NCBI GenBank assembly: GCA_937969495.1
Contig: CALBVY010000027.1
Location: 1 to 52,436, forward strand
Source of the DNA: an uncultured Verrucomicrobiales bacterium
GTDB lineage: Bacteria > Verrucomicrobiota > Verrucomicrobiia > Verrucomicrobiales > Akkermansiaceae
Length of the DNA: 52,436 bases
Direction of reading: 5' to 3'
Made by a program: the position numbers and the translations under genes. This document shows, piece after piece, positions 5,660-39,582 of this stretch. Each line of letters begins with the position of its first letter. The first letter of the stretch is position 1. The notes beneath the pieces were generated by a model. That model was not told where the DNA came from and did not search any database. It saw only the letters and a program-made list of their open reading frames with translations.

Positions 5660-7018
5660 TTATTTAGCGTCGCCATTCCACCAAGCGTCCAGAGCTTTGT
5701 TGAGCTCTTTTACTTTGTCAGCATGTTTCTCGGCAAGATTCACTTTTTCGTGAGGATCTTTGGTGAGATTGTAGAGCTCTGGTTTGCCCTCAGGGTTATC
5801 TATTTTGCCGTATTTGCGTGGTGGTGGGAAGTTGGCTTGGTTGTGGATGATGAGCTTGTAGTCGCCGCGGATAATGTAGCGTGACTCCAAGTTCTTGGTG
5901 CGTGTATCAACACCTGCGATATCGTGGGAGTGGTCCGCTCCGTAAACGGTGTTGCGCTCTTTGAGGGCAGCGAGATCACGGAGATCAGTGCCGGTCATAC
6001 TCTCTGGAACTTTTACTCCAGCGACCTTTAAGATCGTAGGTGCAATATCAATGCTGGAGACGGGGGTGGACTTGTCCATGAGAGGGGTGATCTTTCCTGG
6101 CCACTTGATGGTGATGGGTGTGCGGATGCCGCCCTCGTGCACGTCTTGTTTGGAGAGTGGCTCAAAACGCGAATGCTTGGAGGACTGAATCCAGCCGTTA
6201 TCGGTGACGTAGATAACCACGGTATTGTCACTGAGTCCGCGTTTTTCCAACTCGCCTAACAGTTCTCCGCAAGTTTGGTCAAACCATTCTACCATGGCGT
6301 AGTAACGTGCTACATGGGGGGATTCTACTAGGGCGTTGTATTTTTCAAAAAGCTCTTTGGGCGGATTATGTGGGAAGTGGGGGAGGTAGGGTGCATGCCA
6401 GATGAAGAAGGGCTTCTTGGTATCCTTTGCCTTATCGAGGAAGGTGTGGATAGCTGAAATGCCTTCACGAGAGATCTTGAGGCCCTCATCACCATGTCTG
6501 GCGCGTCGTGAGGGATCTCCGTGGGTCATGGTGTAATCGAAGCCAGCTAGCTTCGGGTCAGACTCCCACCATTTTCCCGTTTGGCAGGAGATGTAGCCAG
6601 CTTTCGCAAGCTCGCTGGTGATGCCTTTTTGCTGATAGAATTGATCATAAAGTTTCTGATGCAGTGCAGCACCTGCTGGTGTTTGCCGAGATACTTTACC
6701 TCCTTTGTCATTATTTAGGTCATTACCAGTGATGCCGTGTTGGTGGGTGTAGAGTCCAGTGTAAATAGAAGCCAGCGATGGGCGACAGAGTGGTGCGGTG
6801 ACATAGCCTCTTGTGAAGGTGAGTGACTCAGCGGCGAGTTTATCTAAACTGGGAGTTTGAATTTGTGGGTGTCCCATGTAGCTGTAATCTGTCCAAGATT
6901 GATCATCGGATAGGATGAGTAGAATGTTTGGCTTTTCAGCATGTAGGGCTGTTGATGACAAGAGGGCTAGGAGAAATGTTTTTTTCAGCGTAGTGATAAA
7001 CGGTAATAGATTTTTCAT
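5660..7018 (-). CDS. exported sulfatase (S1 / arylsulfatase A family)
   Basis: A 452-residue protein with a signal peptide (about residues 1-27, ending STALHA) and a complete sulfatase fold. The metal-binding NILLILSDDQSW (residues 31-42) is followed by the catalytic loop LCRPSLASIYTG, with Cys78 the residue converted to formylglycine. GKWW, HAPYLPHFP, VIYVTDNGW and EGGIRTP follow in order. Most sulfatases read C-x-P-S-R at the catalytic loop; here the Arg is Leu (C-R-P-S-L), a variant I recognise from other marine PVC sulfatases. The likely substrate is a sulfated polysaccharide, and the exact sugar cannot be told. The SGNH hydrolase gene lies upstream on the same strand (180 bp gap). No formylglycine-generating enzyme is encoded here. 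Confidence 0.92.
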   Translation of the reverse strand: MKNLLPFITTLKKTFLLALLSSTALHAEKPNILLILSDDQSWTDYSYMGHPQIQTPSLDKLAAESLTFTRGYVTAPLCRPSLASIYTGLYTHQHGITGNDLNNDKGGKVSRQTPAGAALHQKLYDQFYQQKGITSELAKAGYISCQTGKWWESDPKLAGFDYTMTHGDPSRRARHGDEGLKISREGISAIHTFLDKAKDTKKPFFIWHAPYLPHFPHNPPKELFEKYNALVESPHVARYYAMVEWFDQTCGELLGELEKRGLSDNTVVIYVTDNGWIQSSKHSRFEPLSKQDVHEGGIRTPITIKWPGKITPLMDKSTPVSSIDIAPTILKVAGVKVPESMTGTDLRDLAALKERNTVYGADHSHDIAGVDTRTKNLESRYIIRGDYKLIIHNQANFPPPRKYGKIDNPEGKPELYNLTKDPHEKVNLAEKHADKVKELNKALDAWWNGDAK

Positions 7019-32301: not shown

Positions 32302-33120
32302 TCAGCACAGCCGGATCATATCGCGGATAAATTGTTTCCATAGAAAGAAAAGACCACGGATGGTGTAGCGGAAATGACCATCGCCAGTTGATTGGATAAT
32401 GCCATGATTTAGATTGTGATTAATCTGATGGCGCAGCTCGTGCTCTATTTCTTCACTCACATGATCAGGATCTGGAATACATAGATCATCATCAACAAAG
32501 CCTTGCCTACTCAGATACATATGATGGCACTTGATTAGATTCATAGTGCATTCCCTAGTGCAGCTAATTTGATTCCAGTGCACTTTTGGTGCTGCCTTAA
32601 GAGTGGGGGAAAATGGGAAATTGGTGGTGCGCCAGACTCCGTTTGTTAGGTCGCGGCTTGTTAGAGTGAGGTAGGTGAATGTGACGTTAGACTGTTCGCA
32701 GAGGCAGAGTGATGCCACGGATTTAGTCTCGGCATTCCAGAATAATTGATAGATTTGCTTCATTCCACCAAGATCCCAGCCGCAGTTACGGATATGCTCA
32801 TAGCCAGCTTCTTCCAGTGCGATATGGTGTGCCTCAGCACTTGGGTAGATTTCTGTATTGGCGTATACTTGTTCATTAAGTTTATTTTCCAAGGGCATAC
32901 GCATTTTTCTGATTCTGGTGAGAAGCTCCACCCAAGGGAGGAAAAACCAAGCGGCTGCGGCTGCGATACCGGCCCACAGATTGCCGGTGAGGAAATAGAA
33001 ACATAGACCAGAAGCGATCAGGATAATGAGTGCGCCTGTCTTACGTAAAAAAATCGTCCGGCATGAGCGCAAAGCAAAACCGAATATAATGATGGCGATA
33101 ACGATGTAAAAGTGGTTCAT
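32302..33120 (-). CDS. membrane protein of unknown function
   Basis: The ATG at 33120 is preferred, since it begins directly with the hydrophobic MNHFYIVIAIIIFGFAL segment; an ATG ten codons upstream is possible. The protein has 272 residues with two or three N-terminal membrane segments (up to about residue 62), then a cytoplasmic domain of about 210 residues. Features include ALEEAGYEHIRNCGWDLGGMKQIYQLFW and the helical VSEEIEHELRHQINHNLNHG. The middle resembles uncharacterised PVC proteins that read 'lf...a.isl......g....t.e..T', but I cannot name a family. It is followed by the alpha/beta hydrolase on the same strand. Confidence 0.72.
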   Translation of the reverse strand: MNHFYIVIAIIIFGFALRSCRTIFLRKTGALIILIASGLCFYFLTGNLWAGIAAAAAWFFLPWVELLTRIRKMRMPLENKLNEQVYANTEIYPSAEAHHIALEEAGYEHIRNCGWDLGGMKQIYQLFWNAETKSVASLCLCEQSNVTFTYLTLTSRDLTNGVWRTTNFPFSPTLKAAPKVHWNQISCTRECTMNLIKCHHMYLSRQGFVDDDLCIPDPDHVSEEIEHELRHQINHNLNHGIIQSTGDGHFRYTIRGLFFLWKQFIRDMIRLC

Positions 33121-33287
33121 GATGCATCTTTTGGCGGCGTTGATCATCAATCACGGTGAGGAAAGGATGATGAGGAAGCTTCGATGGGCTGAGGTCTTCC
33201 CAAGCAGCATTGCCGACGCGCAAATATGCCACTCTCTTGGCAGGATTGCAACTTGTGAAAGCTACTTATCCAGATATACTAAAAATC

Positions 33288-33815
33288 ATGGCCATTGAGA
33301 CCTTTGAGGGTAACAGCCCAGATATTCATCCCAGTGTATTTATCGCTCATAGTGCGGACGTCATTGGGCGCGTTAAGCTCGGAGAGCAAGCCAGTGTCTG
33401 GTATAACGCTACCTTGCGCGGTGATATCAACGAGATTGTTATTGGCCCCCAATCTAATATCCAAGATAACGCCTGTGTGCACCTAGCTGATGACTATGGA
33501 GTCTACATTGGTGAGTTGGTCACGGTAGGGCACAGTGCTATCATTCACGCCTGCACCATTAAAGACGAGGTGCTCGTAGGCATGGGAGCCTGTGTTCTGG
33601 ATGGGGCCATCATTGGTGAGCGTAGTATCATTGGTGCAAATTCTTTGATTACTGGAGGTATGGAGATCCCTCCTGGCTCGCTGGTTCTGGGGAGCCCTGC
33701 TAAGGTTGTTAAAACCTTGGATAAAGAGCAGCAGGCCGATATTAAAAAGTGGGCACAGAAATACGTTACCAACTCGAAGAAATATCTCAAACGCCCTAAT
33801 CGAGGCCTTGCGTAG
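33288..33815 (+). CDS. gamma-carbonic anhydrase family protein (YrdA/PaaY type)
   Basis: Start at the ATG at 33288, giving MAIETFEGNSPDIHPSVF and 175 residues, the normal length. It is a left-handed beta-helix with hexapeptide repeats and a C-terminal helix. The three zinc histidines are His65 (CVHLAD), His82 and His87 (VGHSAIIHAC), and the Arg-Asp pair of the family (LRGDIN) is present. Members are carbonic anhydrases or inactive relatives; activity cannot be judged from sequence alone. The gene is divergent from the membrane protein gene, and its stop is 13 bp from the next convergent gene. Confidence 0.92.
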   Translation: MAIETFEGNSPDIHPSVFIAHSADVIGRVKLGEQASVWYNATLRGDINEIVIGPQSNIQDNACVHLADDYGVYIGELVTVGHSAIIHACTIKDEVLVGMGACVLDGAIIGERSIIGANSLITGGMEIPPGSLVLGSPAKVVKTLDKEQQADIKKWAQKYVTNSKKYLKRPNRGLA

Positions 33816-33828
33816 AAGTATAACGCAG

Positions 33829-34713
33829 TTATTTCAATTCATCATAATACGCCACCATTTTAATGGGTTGATGTTTTTTGCTGTTAGGGTTTAGGTAGGG
33901 GAAGAGGAATCCTCTACCATTACTAGGGATTAAAATAGAATCGTAGAAGAATTCTTTTTTTGAGCCATTTTTTAAAACAGCGCGAGCGCGAACCATCGTG
34001 CGGGAGCTCTTATCTAAGACGGGTACTATGTTAGCTGATTTACTTGGTGCAATAGCAATAGTAGATAGGCCATTTTTGCCAGGGGTGTCTACTTCAATGG
34101 GAACAGGGGATGAGTTATAAATTAAAATGGAACCGACTGGTAGCTTTTCTGGGCTAATGTTGAAGTTCTTGAGTAACGGTTTTTCCCATCCTTTCTTTTG
34201 GCGGTAATTTTTAACGAAAAGTAATAGTGCATGTGTTTGATCCTCGCCAATACTTGAGGATAAGTATTTTTTATACGTAACTTTTTCATCTGGTTTACGC
34301 GGTAACGTTTTTAATAGAAAATTTAGATTTGAGCGGCGATGGATTTTTTTTTGGGAAGGCCTTCGATTGGGGGTAATGGAGATCTTTTCGAAAATAGTTT
34401 TGCCCTGCGCGTTCTTATTTTTCAAGTAGAGATTGCGTGGGAAATCTTCAAATGGCTTCGCTTGTATTTCTTTTGGGAACCTATTATTATAAACTACTTT
34501 TTTGATAGATCCATCTTCTTGTTCTTCTTCGATAATGGAAGGTTCGTTTGGTATGGTATACTTCGCTATACGCTTGTGTCCTACAGCTACTACAAGAACA
34601 TCAAGGTCTGTTTTTTTTAAAGGGGGAGAGTCTTGTGCGCATAGTGGAAAAGTCTGAAATGAACAACTAACTGCCAAGCAGATAATCAGGTTTTGTTTGA
34701 TATTTGTTAACAT
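33829..34713 (-). CDS. exported protein next to the Verru_Chthon cassette A gene
   Basis: A 294-residue protein with a signal peptide (about residues 1-26, ending PLCAQ). The mature part is basic and beta-rich. It includes LDVLVVAVGHKRIAKYTIP, a Lys/Arg-rich middle (NRRPSQKKIHRRSNL), and VGSILIYNSSPVPIEVDTPG and GRGFLFPYLNP near the end. The spacing from the upstream cassette A gene is 18 bp, so the two are almost surely co-transcribed. I do not recognise a family; a role with the pilin-like partner at the cell surface is inferred only from position. Confidence 0.78.
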   Translation of the reverse strand: MLTNIKQNLIICLAVSCSFQTFPLCAQDSPPLKKTDLDVLVVAVGHKRIAKYTIPNEPSIIEEEQEDGSIKKVVYNNRFPKEIQAKPFEDFPRNLYLKNKNAQGKTIFEKISITPNRRPSQKKIHRRSNLNFLLKTLPRKPDEKVTYKKYLSSSIGEDQTHALLLFVKNYRQKKGWEKPLLKNFNISPEKLPVGSILIYNSSPVPIEVDTPGKNGLSTIAIAPSKSANIVPVLDKSSRTMVRARAVLKNGSKKEFFYDSILIPSNGRGFLFPYLNPNSKKHQPIKMVAYYDELK

Positions 34714-34731
34714 GACGTGATTAGGTGGTTT

Positions 34732-37700
34732 CTAAATTTCGTTGGCGCTTAGCCATCTAAATGATTGGATGGTAAACTTTCTTCCAAACTGCTTATTACT
34801 TGTAGATGTTAGTGTTGTGGGTTTTATTTCTGGTGAATCTGCGGATGGATCTATGTATTGTGGATTACGTTGGACGATGGCTTCACACCACGCTGTGGCG
34901 GTGATTTCACCTTGGGCATTTTTACTTTCTCCATAGGCTCTAATGCGAAATGTGTCTGATCTTGAAGTCAGGCTAGAGCCAATCACCTCAAGCACTTTGC
35001 CTTGGGTGAGGTGCGCGGGTGCATTGGCATATGATTCGGTAGGCATATTGGAAGTGGGGATATCGGCGACTCCTCGACTTGTGGCATAATTTGCAGCACT
35101 TTGATCAGCACGATCTTGTAAGGATTGGTTGATTCCTGCTTTATAAATAGCGATTTCGGTAGGGCCTGCATAGCTTAAGAGGTCATCATCAGATTGGTTA
35201 CTGATATTTGGAGCATCACTTGGTGCAATAGTTGCGGTGTGTAATCTTCGATTGACGAAATCCGAAAGGGAGATAAATGGTGCTCTCCGTTTAACTTGTT
35301 CAATGATATTTGCAGCTAAAGTTTCAACTTCTGTTGAGTTTAATTCTCGATAGCCTTGCCATGTGAATGGATCTCCAGAAGCGAATATCTCCCCGCCATC
35401 AGCTTCTGGAGTAGTTGTTCCTGGGAATGGAGCGGCATTAGCACTGGTGGTTTTGTCATTAATGCTCATTCCCAAATTCATCGATAGCAGACTTTGCCAT
35501 GCGATCATATGAGTAGAGTTGACAGAGAGGTGATTGCTTATTCGTAAACTTTTTGCAATTAGATCTGGAGCGGCTGCAGTAGCATCTGAGAGGTCGATTG
35601 TGCTATCTGTGTTAACTACCTTAATTCTGTTATTGGGTAAGTTTTTGTTAGTAAGGAAGTCCTCAAGTTTCCCCGATTTAGGTAGTGTCGAGAAGAAATA
35701 CTGATCCCAGAGAGCGTGGTTGACCTCAAAGCGGTAATCGTAGCATGCATACCCTTCACTGGGGTCATATTCTATCTGCCACCAAGGCGTGCGTCTATTT
35801 AGAGGAGCAGAGTCGGATGTAGGATCATTTTTGACGGTGAAGCCTGTAGTCGGATCACCGTAAAATGCGGTATTAAAGTCACCTGTGTAATCAGTGATTG
35901 GATGAGCGCTTTGATCTCTTGGTGCTGTGATGGGCACGAGGCTCTCTCCGATGATGAAGGTGGGTGCGCCGAATTCATGTGTGAGGGTTGCTTGTCTGAG
36001 CTGTCCCATAGAGAAAGCTTGTATGCCAGGTGACGGAACATCGAACAGAATAGTGCGTAAGTTGTTGCCTGACATTAGTGGATTAAAAAATGGTGATGTT
36101 TCTGAAAGACCACCAATAAACTTGGTCTCAGGGAGGCTTACATAATAGTCACGTGGTGGACCATCTTCACATGTCATAGGGCCAAAACTCGAATCGCCGA
36201 ACAGATCAAATTCTGTTGGCCAGTCATAAATCGTTCTGCGATAAAATGGAGAGCGTAAATTGGAAAGTTCCAGAAATGGATAATCCCAAAAGCCATCAGG
36301 ATGGTTAGTGCCGTTGCCGCCAGATTCATCTGGGTGCATTTTAAACCTTAATCCTAAACGAGAATTTTTCCCTGGGTCTGTCCAAGATGAAGGGGTGTTG
36401 ATGTTTTGTAAATCAAAAGGCCCCTGATCAACTCTTCTATAGCGCTTTATGTTGTTGTTTCGATAATGATCGGTCGCATCCATAGTGTGAATAATAGGAG
36501 CGTTCATTTCCCCTCCTGTTGTTGCATTTAAGCCAGCAAAACTAGATCCTCCCTTCCCAAGTCTTAGACTGGCTACAAGGGGGGCGATCACCTGAAAATC
36601 ATTGGCGTTGTTACCTCCAGACGGATCGTATGTTGAGCCCTTGCTTAGATCAAATGCCACCCCATTCAAATACCTTGGTATCGAGCAGTTCACGCTAAAG
36701 GCGCTTGGTGACATGGCGGATAGTTGCTTATCTGCTGTAAGTCTATTCAGAGTAATTGCTCCATCACGGGGCTGCATGGGCTGCGCTCCTGAGTGGCTTG
36801 GTATGAATACCAGTGCTTGTCCAGGTTCCAGTCTAACCCCCGGAAGGTAAAAAACAGGGTCAAGTTTGTTGGCTCCCGTTGGATCTGAGGCTAATGTAGA
36901 TGTATTATGGTTAGTAAATCCGTATGTTTCAGCGTTTCCGTCTTGGAAAAAGTGAGGTTGTGCGCGTATACCATAATGAATTTGAACATAATAATCTGTG
37001 GCATTGAGCGTCACATTGTAAGGATTCCACAGGGTAATACGTGGATAAACGAGAGCGGATAGATTTGAAGGGCTAGCTGGATCATAAACATAATCATTGT
37101 AGAGGCTGAACTCGGCAAGGACAGGGTGGATGCCGTGCTTGATCACCTTGGTAGGATCAGCATAGGCATCATTATTCCCACCTCCTGCAATGGGTGCTCT
37201 AGGGTCCATCTCTCGATCGCTGTTCATTAAGTCACCAAGCCGGATGTAGTCTCTCAGTGCACCGAACTTGGGTGATAGTGCCGCGAACCTAGTGGCACTA
37301 AGTAGAGGTGTTGTATCACTTAGGATTGTAGCGCCTGTGCTGCTCAATAGCTCGCCGTTACCTGGATCAGCGGTATCTTGGATAAATGAACTTAAATCTG
37401 TCTTGAATCCCCCATCAATCGTGTTGGTGAATAGGGAGCTATTGGTGAGTGTGTAGCTCTGATCGTTTTCTTTTAGTAACTTCTTAGCTTCTTCGTTTTC
37501 GGTACCATTAGGATTGATTTCTAGCGTTTTATACGTGGGGTATTTCGAGGATTGATCAAGGTCTGAGACAAATGTATCAGCGGAAAAGTCCGCCAGAGCT
37601 TCGTTTGTGTCGGCCAATTTGTCATACGGTCGTTTACGGCCTGTGTATAAGTTTGCGTAACCTCCATTGGTGGTATCGGAATTATCTGGATTTTCAGTTA

Positions 37701-38412
37701 CCGTTGGATTGTGATCGATGATAGGCGCTGCCATGCCTAAATCGGTTACATGATAGGCATAGCCACCAGTGATTGATGTGCCGCCAGAGCGAACAGGAAC
37801 CACGGGAGCCTCTACTTTATCATTCCCCTTGTTTTCATGTCCTAATGTTACAAGAGTTCTGCCAGTTAAATTAAAGGTGGCTGAATCAAAATCAAAGAAG
37901 TTAGCCTGATCGCCGCCACTGATCAACCATGTCTTTACGTTTCTACGGTGATCTTCAAAGGATGCGTCACCAAGGCTACGGCGATCCATGTGGTATCCAT
38001 CATCGGTTTGGTAAATGATGGGGTTACCATTGTTGGTGAGTGTGGACCATGCACCTAAGGTGTGTGGTAAATTAACCCCATCGATCTCCAGAGTGGTAGG
38101 ATCTGTGTCAAAAATACTGGCTGTGGCTGATACACGCTGATCTGGCCCTAGAGATTCTTGAAGCTGGCCGATAGCGATCATGAGTGCCATACGTGCATTT
38201 TGCTGGGCTATAGCGCGATCATTGCTTCGATTACTGTCTCGACTTTCAATTGTGCTTAAGCTAAGCATTGCTAATGCAATCATTACCAGTAGCACCATAA
38301 TGGAAATTGTGGCGATCAGTGCGAAGCCTTGTCGCGATTGCAGGGTGTAACCACGTTGACTCGTTCCACGGCAGGGTGATTGGTGAGGGTGATTCTGGCT
38401 GTGTATATTCAT
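34732..38412 (-). CDS. Verru_Chthon cassette protein A (giant pilin-like protein)
   Basis: A 1226-residue protein. A basic leader (residues 1-28) ends in SRQG, followed by FALIATISIMVLLVMIALA, a type IV prepilin-like segment with a cleavage site after Gly29 but without the usual Glu5. This GspK/PilX-like start, then QNARMALMIAIGQLQESLGPDQRVSATASI and an Asn/Asp/Thr-rich body, matches the cassette protein A family of Verrucomicrobia. That family usually sits in four-gene A-B-C-D sets with three smaller prepilin-like proteins. None of B, C or D is adjacent here; the only partner is the exported protein 18 bp downstream. Surface assembly through a type IV pilus or type II secretion-like machine is inferred. 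Confidence 0.9.
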   Translation of the reverse strand: MNIHSQNHPHQSPCRGTSQRGYTLQSRQGFALIATISIMVLLVMIALAMLSLSTIESRDSNRSNDRAIAQQNARMALMIAIGQLQESLGPDQRVSATASIFDTDPTTLEIDGVNLPHTLGAWSTLTNNGNPIIYQTDDGYHMDRRSLGDASFEDHRRNVKTWLISGGDQANFFDFDSATFNLTGRTLVTLGHENKGNDKVEAPVVPVRSGGTSITGGYAYHVTDLGMAAPIIDHNPTVTENPDNSDTTNGGYANLYTGRKRPYDKLADTNEALADFSADTFVSDLDQSSKYPTYKTLEINPNGTENEEAKKLLKENDQSYTLTNSSLFTNTIDGGFKTDLSSFIQDTADPGNGELLSSTGATILSDTTPLLSATRFAALSPKFGALRDYIRLGDLMNSDREMDPRAPIAGGGNNDAYADPTKVIKHGIHPVLAEFSLYNDYVYDPASPSNLSALVYPRITLWNPYNVTLNATDYYVQIHYGIRAQPHFFQDGNAETYGFTNHNTSTLASDPTGANKLDPVFYLPGVRLEPGQALVFIPSHSGAQPMQPRDGAITLNRLTADKQLSAMSPSAFSVNCSIPRYLNGVAFDLSKGSTYDPSGGNNANDFQVIAPLVASLRLGKGGSSFAGLNATTGGEMNAPIIHTMDATDHYRNNNIKRYRRVDQGPFDLQNINTPSSWTDPGKNSRLGLRFKMHPDESGGNGTNHPDGFWDYPFLELSNLRSPFYRRTIYDWPTEFDLFGDSSFGPMTCEDGPPRDYYVSLPETKFIGGLSETSPFFNPLMSGNNLRTILFDVPSPGIQAFSMGQLRQATLTHEFGAPTFIIGESLVPITAPRDQSAHPITDYTGDFNTAFYGDPTTGFTVKNDPTSDSAPLNRRTPWWQIEYDPSEGYACYDYRFEVNHALWDQYFFSTLPKSGKLEDFLTNKNLPNNRIKVVNTDSTIDLSDATAAAPDLIAKSLRISNHLSVNSTHMIAWQSLLSMNLGMSINDKTTSANAAPFPGTTTPEADGGEIFASGDPFTWQGYRELNSTEVETLAANIIEQVKRRAPFISLSDFVNRRLHTATIAPSDAPNISNQSDDDLLSYAGPTEIAIYKAGINQSLQDRADQSAANYATSRGVADIPTSNMPTESYANAPAHLTQGKVLEVIGSSLTSRSDTFRIRAYGESKNAQGEITATAWCEAIVQRNPQYIDPSADSPEIKPTTLTSTSNKQFGRKFTIQSFRWLSANEI

Positions 38413-38548: not shown

Positions 38549-39493
38549 CTAAGCTGATCGCGGAATAGTCGTTTGTAAAATGATGCTGTCTGCTGCTGCT
38601 GTGATAGCTTTTGCGTTACGAGGGAGCAATAGAAAATCCCCCTGAGAGTATTGGGTGCCATCTGCTGACTGGAGTGTGCCTGAAACGACTGCAATGATAG
38701 AGAATCTCTCAGGATCAGGGTTTTCTACGCTGGATTGAGCTGAAAGCTTAAGTTGATCGACTTGGAAGTAGGCGCAGCTTGCTAAAGTATTACCCTGGGG
38801 TGTATCCATGCTGGGCTCTACATCGGTGAAATCAATACATTGCATGGACTCTTTAACGTGAAGCTGACGTGGGCTGCCGTCCAGCCCCATGCGATTCCAG
38901 TCAAACACCCGGAAAGTGGTGTCTGAGTTTTGCTGAATTTCATAAATAAGCAGACCTGCACCAATGGCATGTAGCCTACCTGATGGGATGAAGATGGAGT
39001 CTCCAGCCTTTGGGGTAATAGCGTGGACTACTTGATCAACGGTGCCGTTTTCAATGGCTTGTTGAAAATCCTCCCGGCTGACGCCTGCTTTCATCCCAAC
39101 GTAGAGCTTGGCGCCTGGCTCCGCATCAGCGATGTACCACATTTCTGTTTTGGGCTCTCCTCCCAGCTTGGCTGTGAGCGCAGCTGGGGGGTGAACTTGG
39201 ATGGATAAGTCATCACGTGCATCAAGGATCTTAATAAGGAGGGGGAATCGTGCCTCATCCTCGAAGTTGGAGCCAAAAACCTCTTCACGTTTCTCCTGCC
39301 ACAGCTGGCTCAGTGTATATCCCTGATAATCTCCAGATAGCACCACAGACTGGGCATCGGAGCGGTCGGTCATTTCCCAAGATTCTCCGAAGGGGGTGTC
39401 AGGAGCGGGTAGAGTACGTCCATACTGTTTCTCCAGCTCGCGCCCTCCCCAGATGCGTTCCATGTAAAGGGGAGTGAAAATGATTGGCTTCAT
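38549..39493 (-). CDS. manA: mannose-6-phosphate isomerase, class I
   Basis: A 314-residue protein beginning MKPIIFTPLYMERIWGG at the ATG at 39493; a GTG directly before it is not needed. It is the short ManA type, as in Bacillus. The metal-binding cupin has LSIQVHPPA, KTEMWYI and SGRLHAIGAG, and the family's LLIYEIQQNSDTTFRVFDW block follows. It interconverts mannose-6-phosphate and fructose-6-phosphate, linking mannose use and GDP-mannose supply for glycans to glycolysis. It is a single gene on the minus strand, divergent from lolD (90 bp). Confidence 0.95.
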   Translation of the reverse strand: MKPIIFTPLYMERIWGGRELEKQYGRTLPAPDTPFGESWEMTDRSDAQSVVLSGDYQGYTLSQLWQEKREEVFGSNFEDEARFPLLIKILDARDDLSIQVHPPAALTAKLGGEPKTEMWYIADAEPGAKLYVGMKAGVSREDFQQAIENGTVDQVVHAITPKAGDSIFIPSGRLHAIGAGLLIYEIQQNSDTTFRVFDWNRMGLDGSPRQLHVKESMQCIDFTDVEPSMDTPQGNTLASCAYFQVDQLKLSAQSSVENPDPERFSIIAVVSGTLQSADGTQYSQGDFLLLPRNAKAITAAADSIILQTTIPRSA

Positions 39494-39582
39494 CACGCTA
39501 CGTTAAATAGCTGAACGGGAAAAATCGATGATTTCTTGAGAAAAAAATTCGCTTCCGTGGAGGGATCGACTAGAGGTGATGC

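Follow-up and report, generated by a model that had tools for sequence, protein, structure and literature searches.

The window analysed here, the whole stretch of 52436 bases, is the complete contig C27 of an uncultured Verrucomicrobiales bacterium, whose genome (2.47 Mb in 98 contigs, 96% complete) was also searched beyond C27. Two neighbouring genes on the reverse strand, called A and P below, form the unit of interest, with readable flanks of about 14 kb and about 33 kb. The features of the locus are as follows.

34732..38412, minus strand: gene A, 1226 aa, giant GspK-like minor pseudopilin (ORF confirmed, GspK fold by prediction)
38326..38412, minus strand: A residues 1-29, prepilin (type III) leader with G29 as its last residue, followed by FALIA (from sequence)
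38149..38331, minus strand: A residues 28-88, long N-terminal pilin helix (helical at model residues 2-62)
34735..35367, minus strand: A residues ~1016-1226, C-terminal portion of a pilin fold of GspK type (VIA-align to XcpX, boundaries approximate)
33829..34713, minus strand: gene P, 294 aa, basic, with an N-terminal signal-like stretch and two beta-sandwich domains, without a Pfam or NCBIfam family
34156..34614, minus strand: P residues 34-186, first beta domain (approximate, AlphaFold model)
33832..34155, minus strand: P residues 187-294, second beta domain, with N200 (model and family conservation)
38549..39496, minus strand: manA, upstream, an incidental neighbour outside the unit (manA model match)

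An ORF check placed P downstream of A across a gap of 18 bases, and the gene at 38549-39496 scored 138.2 bits against the manA model (cut-off 116.2 bits); the first-pass annotation had thus described the arrangement of A, P and manA correctly. The manA protein of the window had no other match among the ORFs of 80 regions (L059-L138) and a single match in 80 named loci (L190, about 6 kb from its A), and its position beside A is incidental. A wide prepilin motif scan, combined with related I-like and J-like profiles, detected no B-, C- or D-like prepilin in the window, the motif scan returning one 79-aa frame only, which is spurious; the earlier observation that A has no B, C or D gene beside it therefore holds for the whole of contig C27. 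Promoter and terminator sites were no more frequent in a scan than in shuffled sequence. At window positions 33001-36000, around P and the 3' portion of A, the G+C content falls to 0.42-0.43, compared with about 0.47 in the adjoining sequence.

Protein A had been labelled a Verru_Chthon cassette A protein (TIGR02600), a label that we rejected. Its match to TIGR02600 reached 26.4 bits against a cut-off of 332.3 and covered profile positions 1-59 of 1296 (A residues 29-87), whereas four canonical A proteins of the same order scored 831.8-1432.2 bits. Comparison of the A profile with these four proteins by hhalign aligned only 81 and 68 N-terminal columns (E 2.2e-10 over 81). TIGR02600 was matched weakly by 13 of 14 A-family members (best E 3.5e-7), and the family HMM gave a second weak region, at positions 192-268, in six canonical A proteins with i-Evalues of 0.012-28. 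The label fails on the curated score, on the profile comparison and on the lack of neighbouring B, C and D genes in the contig.

Structure prediction pointed to another family. The AlphaFold2 model of A (residues 27-1226, built from 36 homologues) is only fair, with a mean pLDDT of 69.4 and a pTM of 0.81; aligned by VIA-align, it matched four GspK/XcpX entries at Z 12.0, 11.7, 11.4 and 11.1, and the first unrelated structure followed at Z 4.4. The best match was XcpX (6utu_C; Z 12.0, 229 of 261 residues, 2.9 A), spanning model residues 40-1196. Foldseek alone ranked a GspK entry (3ci0_K) first as well, but at E 0.2. Residue 5 of the mature protein is acidic in most pilins and non-acidic in GspK. 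That position is Ala34 in A, and all 124 homologues scored (33 fragments or unmatched sequences were excluded) carry A, I, V, S, T, L or M. The GspK model NF037980 gave A 15.2 bits, below its cut-off of 130, and weakly matched 12 of 14 family members (best E 2.7e-7). Pair identity among A proteins is 0.46-0.47 at the ends and drops to as little as 0.14 in the middle, the N-terminal helix and the C-terminus being among the most conserved blocks. Given the predicted GspK fold and the non-acidic position +5, the best reading of A is a giant pilin of GspK type that carries a large insertion; with this predicted fold it would exceed GspK by roughly 900 residues. Sequence searches were silent, as Pfam gave nothing at E 0.1 for the 14 A members and the PDB nothing below E 0.36 for the A and P profiles. 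Jelly-roll matches to the middle of A were weak (Z 4.4 or less) and were not used.

Protein P agrees with its earlier description as basic, with a pI of 9.9 and a net charge of about +22 without the first 26 residues, and its signal-like hydrophobic N-terminal stretch gives it the appearance of an exported protein. These properties are common to the family: 56 of 59 P proteins have a pI above 8 (median 9.7), against 23 of 86 other exported-looking ORFs of similar size from the same loci (median 5.6), a background of machine-called ORFs of which some are surely spurious. The A proteins that accompany P are acidic, 54 of 61 lying below pI 6.5. The window P had no match in Pfam or NCBIfam, and 42 P members gave only single-member matches there (best E 0.0013), none of them common to the members. 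Its AlphaFold model (mean pLDDT 90.6) consists of two beta-sandwich domains, and among solved structures the extracellular domain of PepT2 comes closest to it (Z 13.8, 179 residues, 3.0 A). Besides M1, only N200 in the second domain is conserved in at least 90% of members. This second domain also matches HGSNAT and domain 4 of cholesterol-dependent cytolysins (Z 8-10), which we read as a common fold and no more; nothing points to a toxin. PADLOC matched neither A nor P, and no P was found in phage records. The predicted fold gives no function for P.

We then looked at how regularly A and P occur together. A single-sequence search of 58 related genomes detected A in 40 genomes and P in 4, and a P profile recovered P in 37 of the 58, as well as in 47 of 288 genomes drawn from the phylum, where at most 8 candidates per genome were scored. 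For ten well-assembled genomes, among the matches listed (the weakest at E 2.3e-5), P lay within 1 kb downstream on the same strand at 78 of 84 A loci, and A within 2.6 kb upstream at 82 of 90 P loci; random placement would give an expected adjacency of 0.12. Although the P model derives from P genes located near A, this test is still fairer than one on regions L059-L138, which were picked around A matches and in which adjacency is biased upward. One of the six A loci without P is a 61-residue match and probably false; of the eight exceptional P loci, two have an A on the opposite strand about 7 kb away, and another is the second P of this genome, which is split. The order of A before P was strict in the ten genomes, with mostly short gaps, and each genome held 2 to 15 pairs among the matches listed. 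The evolutionary distances of A and P also agree, with r 0.79 over 60 pairs (reached by 0 of 2000 within-genome shuffles) and r 0.77 over 116 same-genome pairs (reached by 1 of 2000 shuffles). Tight linkage alone would yield matched distances, so that this agreement demonstrates co-inheritance and not binding.

Recurring in most related loci, the adjacency goes beyond chance, and A and P are a recurrent gene pair inherited together. Because P returns as the specific neighbour of A, counted from either gene, it is very likely a real, so far unnamed component of a filament. The first-pass annotation had suspected an unrecognised cassette component and had asked whether the P family might never be found near such A genes elsewhere; the suspicion is borne out, and P recurs beside A.

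The second A of this genome, on contig C14, is also followed by a P, which the contig end cuts (L059 12739-13179), and the C-terminal part of a P stands at the end of contig C30 (G000:C30:67972-68514). Hence, C14 and C30 probably abut. Elsewhere, tandem P copies stand behind one A, three in L094 (4418-7098) and two in L070 (10967-12589).

The idea that P always stands next to an A of this kind did not survive. The best 80 of at least 545 confirmed named A loci, among them loci of the cultivable Roseibacillus persicicus and Haloferula luteola, contain 86 A genes, and a gap rule assigns P to 47 of these; at least three A genes at contig ends, with no room for P, and one whose P deeply overlaps A (L179) count as misses in this number. 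On the A tree, with L069, L103, L106, L108 and L179 labelled as P-bearing by hand, the A proteins without P clustered: the 131 proteins required 9 state changes, whereas none of 300 shuffles required fewer than 28. In these lineages A has the same size as where P is present, and the genes downstream are varied. Since the A proteins without P cluster as lineages, P is a strong but non-obligatory partner of A. In one of these lineages (L095, L100, L156, L160), A is followed by a protein of about 450 aa that looks thioredoxin-like by eye and is a possible alternative partner.

The missing prepilins turned up elsewhere in the genome. The B and D models of the TIGR02600 cassette found no gene over their cut-offs in any of 23 genomes searched in the family of the window, while ten other genomes of the order (36 searched) had such genes. 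Weak matches to the same models led to a prepilin trio on contig C20 of this genome (L060 5863-8397), in the order D-, B- and C-like (GspH/I/J-like) and only distantly related to D, B and C. In three other genomes, H-, I- and J-like prepilins homologous to this trio are joined to A and P, in the order H-I-J-A-P in L093 (same contig as L146) and in L187, and A-P-H-I-J in L256, where A extends to the contig end; in L078 an A-P pair lies 5.8 kb from the trio and is loosely linked. In most loci examined, A lies apart from H-I-J. The trio on C20 and the joined arrangements together argue against a cassette that lost B, C and D: the cassette is split, not reduced. Of the proposal that A belongs to a reduced cassette with a different partner, the partner therefore stands and the reduction does not.

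The trio follows P across genomes. A J-like profile at E <= 1e-30, a threshold chosen after seeing the list and lying in a gap from 7.5e-32 to 7.8e-14, gave one match each in 31 of 37 P-positive genomes and in 0 of 21 P-negative ones (Fisher p 9e-11). One of the 31 matches, in G007, is partial; the six P-positive genomes without a match at this level (G003, G004, G005, G006, G009 and G018) have listed completeness of 84-96%, and the P-negative G014 has an intermediate match (E 2.2e-12). Among 20 J-like loci fetched, H, I and J frames stood together in 16, two frames in three, and J alone in one, at a contig end. Six trio proteins compared at position +5 have Glu there. The ten well-assembled genomes together contain ten J-like genes against at least 84 A loci.

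Several other genes were seen around these loci. Two genes adjoin the H-I-J trio in L060 (1209-5677) and, by eye, in L078 (5624-10173): a Snf2-type helicase of about 1200 aa, with a partial match to NF053675 ('pilus expression-regulating Snf2 family helicase') below cut-off, and a TolR/ExbD-like protein. Near A-P pairs, PEP-CTERM proteins recognised by motif occur at L098, L117, L136, L063, L113 and others. Counting ORFs of at least 150 aa, they make up 12 of 249 within 2 kb, 7 of 131 at 2-5 kb and 0 of 84 beyond, and we dropped them as a functional clue because the near and middle rates are alike. Sulfatase-like genes, also called by motif, were seen at window positions 5660-7018 and, four of them at L064 737-7103, directly downstream of an A-P pair; clustering of sulfatases near A-P is limited to single loci.

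For the function of the pair, the tips of known filaments provide a template. PMC9934059 describes a tip complex of H, I, J and K, capped by K, for both type II secretion pseudopili and type IV pili, with PilC/PilY1 as a non-pilin effector at the tip of diderm type IV pili; PMC6211770 deals with XcpX, the K subunit. By analogy with this H-I-J-K tip and with PilC/PilY1, we propose that A is a K-like cap and P a non-pilin partner in a cassette of minor pseudopilins of the type IV filament-like (type II secretion-like) kind, a reading to which we give a probability of about 0.6. Within it, a shared H-I-J base with many alternative K-P tips is the best model, although the tip role itself is one that we infer. 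A single short pseudopilus would be primed by H, I and J and could take its cap from among several A proteins, and the large insertion of A would be exposed. A cognate basic P would then bind the large acidic head of A outside the inner membrane, perhaps through opposite charge, and might act at the tip as a receptor, an adhesin or a cargo adaptor. As a single H-I-J locus would serve many A-P pairs, the outcome would be one machine with alternative tips. Export, formation of the A-P complex, tip location, tip exchange and ligands are likewise inferred. The bolder form of this model, an interchangeable-tip pseudopilus in which one H-I-J base locus draws on a library of K-P pairs (2 to 15 in the ten genomes, among the matches listed), is tentative and in our estimate falls somewhat short of even odds.

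Several observations weigh on the cap-and-partner reading. Among them are the linkage that would itself yield matched distances, the six P-positive genomes without a J-like match at the threshold, the intermediate match in G014, the only fair model of A, the E of 0.2 from Foldseek alone and the uninformative fold of P. Since only 47 of the 86 A genes in the best 80 named loci have P, A can work without it. Secretin and assembly-ATPase domains are present in this genome, as is a separate pseudopilin operon on contig C59 (L230), which by eye looks like a complete type II pseudopilin set. This operon has its own 317-aa K, which counts against our explanation.

Another role for P would be that of cargo, a secreted substrate delivered by the pseudopilus, with A as a cargo-specific cap that selects it. 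The signal-like N-terminal segment of P, the lack of an enzyme fold found in it, the paralogue-by-paralogue matching of A and P and the many pairs per genome would all suit such a role, but the P family is too uniform for it, being mostly 220-330 aa and basic, and with a single residue besides the start conserved at the 90% level it gives no sign of a shared active site. We consider the cargo role unlikely; the tandem P copies are compatible with it and with a tip partner alike. Slightly less probable still is a role for P in the periplasm, as a chaperone or an assembly factor holding the large inserted head of A folded or soluble until incorporation: strict gene order with mostly short gaps, opposite charges and a beta-sandwich fold, as in many binding proteins, speak for it, whereas the A lineages of equal size that have no P indicate that A does not always need P for folding. 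That A is a Verru_Chthon cassette A orphaned by the loss of B, C and D, with P acquired as a chance neighbour, is very improbable, as the weak TIGR02600 match over the pilin helix and the lack of B-, C- or D-like genes in the contig are outweighed by the score far under the cut-off, the alignment to canonical A over only 68-81 N-terminal columns, the related trio on C20 and the presence of P at 78 of 84 A loci among the matches listed.

We return to the K-like cap with its non-pilin partner. On this reading the two genes encode a GspK-like pilin, probably one of the filament tip, and its conserved partner, which so far has no name; they belong to a cassette of five genes that is split. A large gene pair without a name, which occurs many times over in the genomes of Akkermansiaceae-type bacteria (marine Roseibacillus and its relatives among them), thereby gains an identity that can be tested, and the H-I-J-K cassette would gain a fifth member that is not a pilin. 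If the model of a shared base with many tips is true, a secretion or adhesion filament could be diversified by swapping its cap alone, and a cell could redirect the recognition of the filament by exchanging no more than the cap and its basic partner. It would also help to explain how such bacteria handle many different polymers.

Within the library searched, no paper named Verru_Chthon or TIGR02600, and among the titles listed for pseudopilins or prepilins of Verrucomicrobia none was on an A-P unit. Compared with known systems, P shares its tandem beta-sandwich domains with the extracellular domain of PepT2/PepT1 (PDB 5a9i, 7nqk), at an identity of about 11% that implies no functional relation. 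The TIGR02600 A proteins resemble A as giant prepilin-like proteins of Verrucomicrobia with a related N-terminal helix, and canonical ones also give weak GspK matches; past the N-terminus there is no clear similarity to A, and the canonical order is A-B-C-D (L085, L086), unlike A-P. A P match was absent in 17 of 18 genomes of families f2-f4, with G050 as the exception, and G039 carries P together with B and D genes over cut-off.

The PilY1 gene sits after pilX. Like PilY1/PilC, P is a non-pilin encoded beside a K-like minor pilin, a likeness that is an analogy only. P differs in having about 260 aa and two beta-sandwich domains, PilY1 being extremely large according to PMC9934059. The nearest relatives of A in this comparison are GspK, XcpX and PilX, the K of the H-I-J-K tip (NF037980). 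At about 1200 aa against about 320 aa, A is far larger than GspK, and it is also unlike GspK in its many copies per genome, its location mostly apart from H-I-J, the P gene next downstream and its score below the NF037980 cut-off. It shares with them the prepilin leader, the non-acidic position +5 and the predicted GspK fold; it is encoded beside H-, I- and J-like prepilins in three relatives and not in the window.
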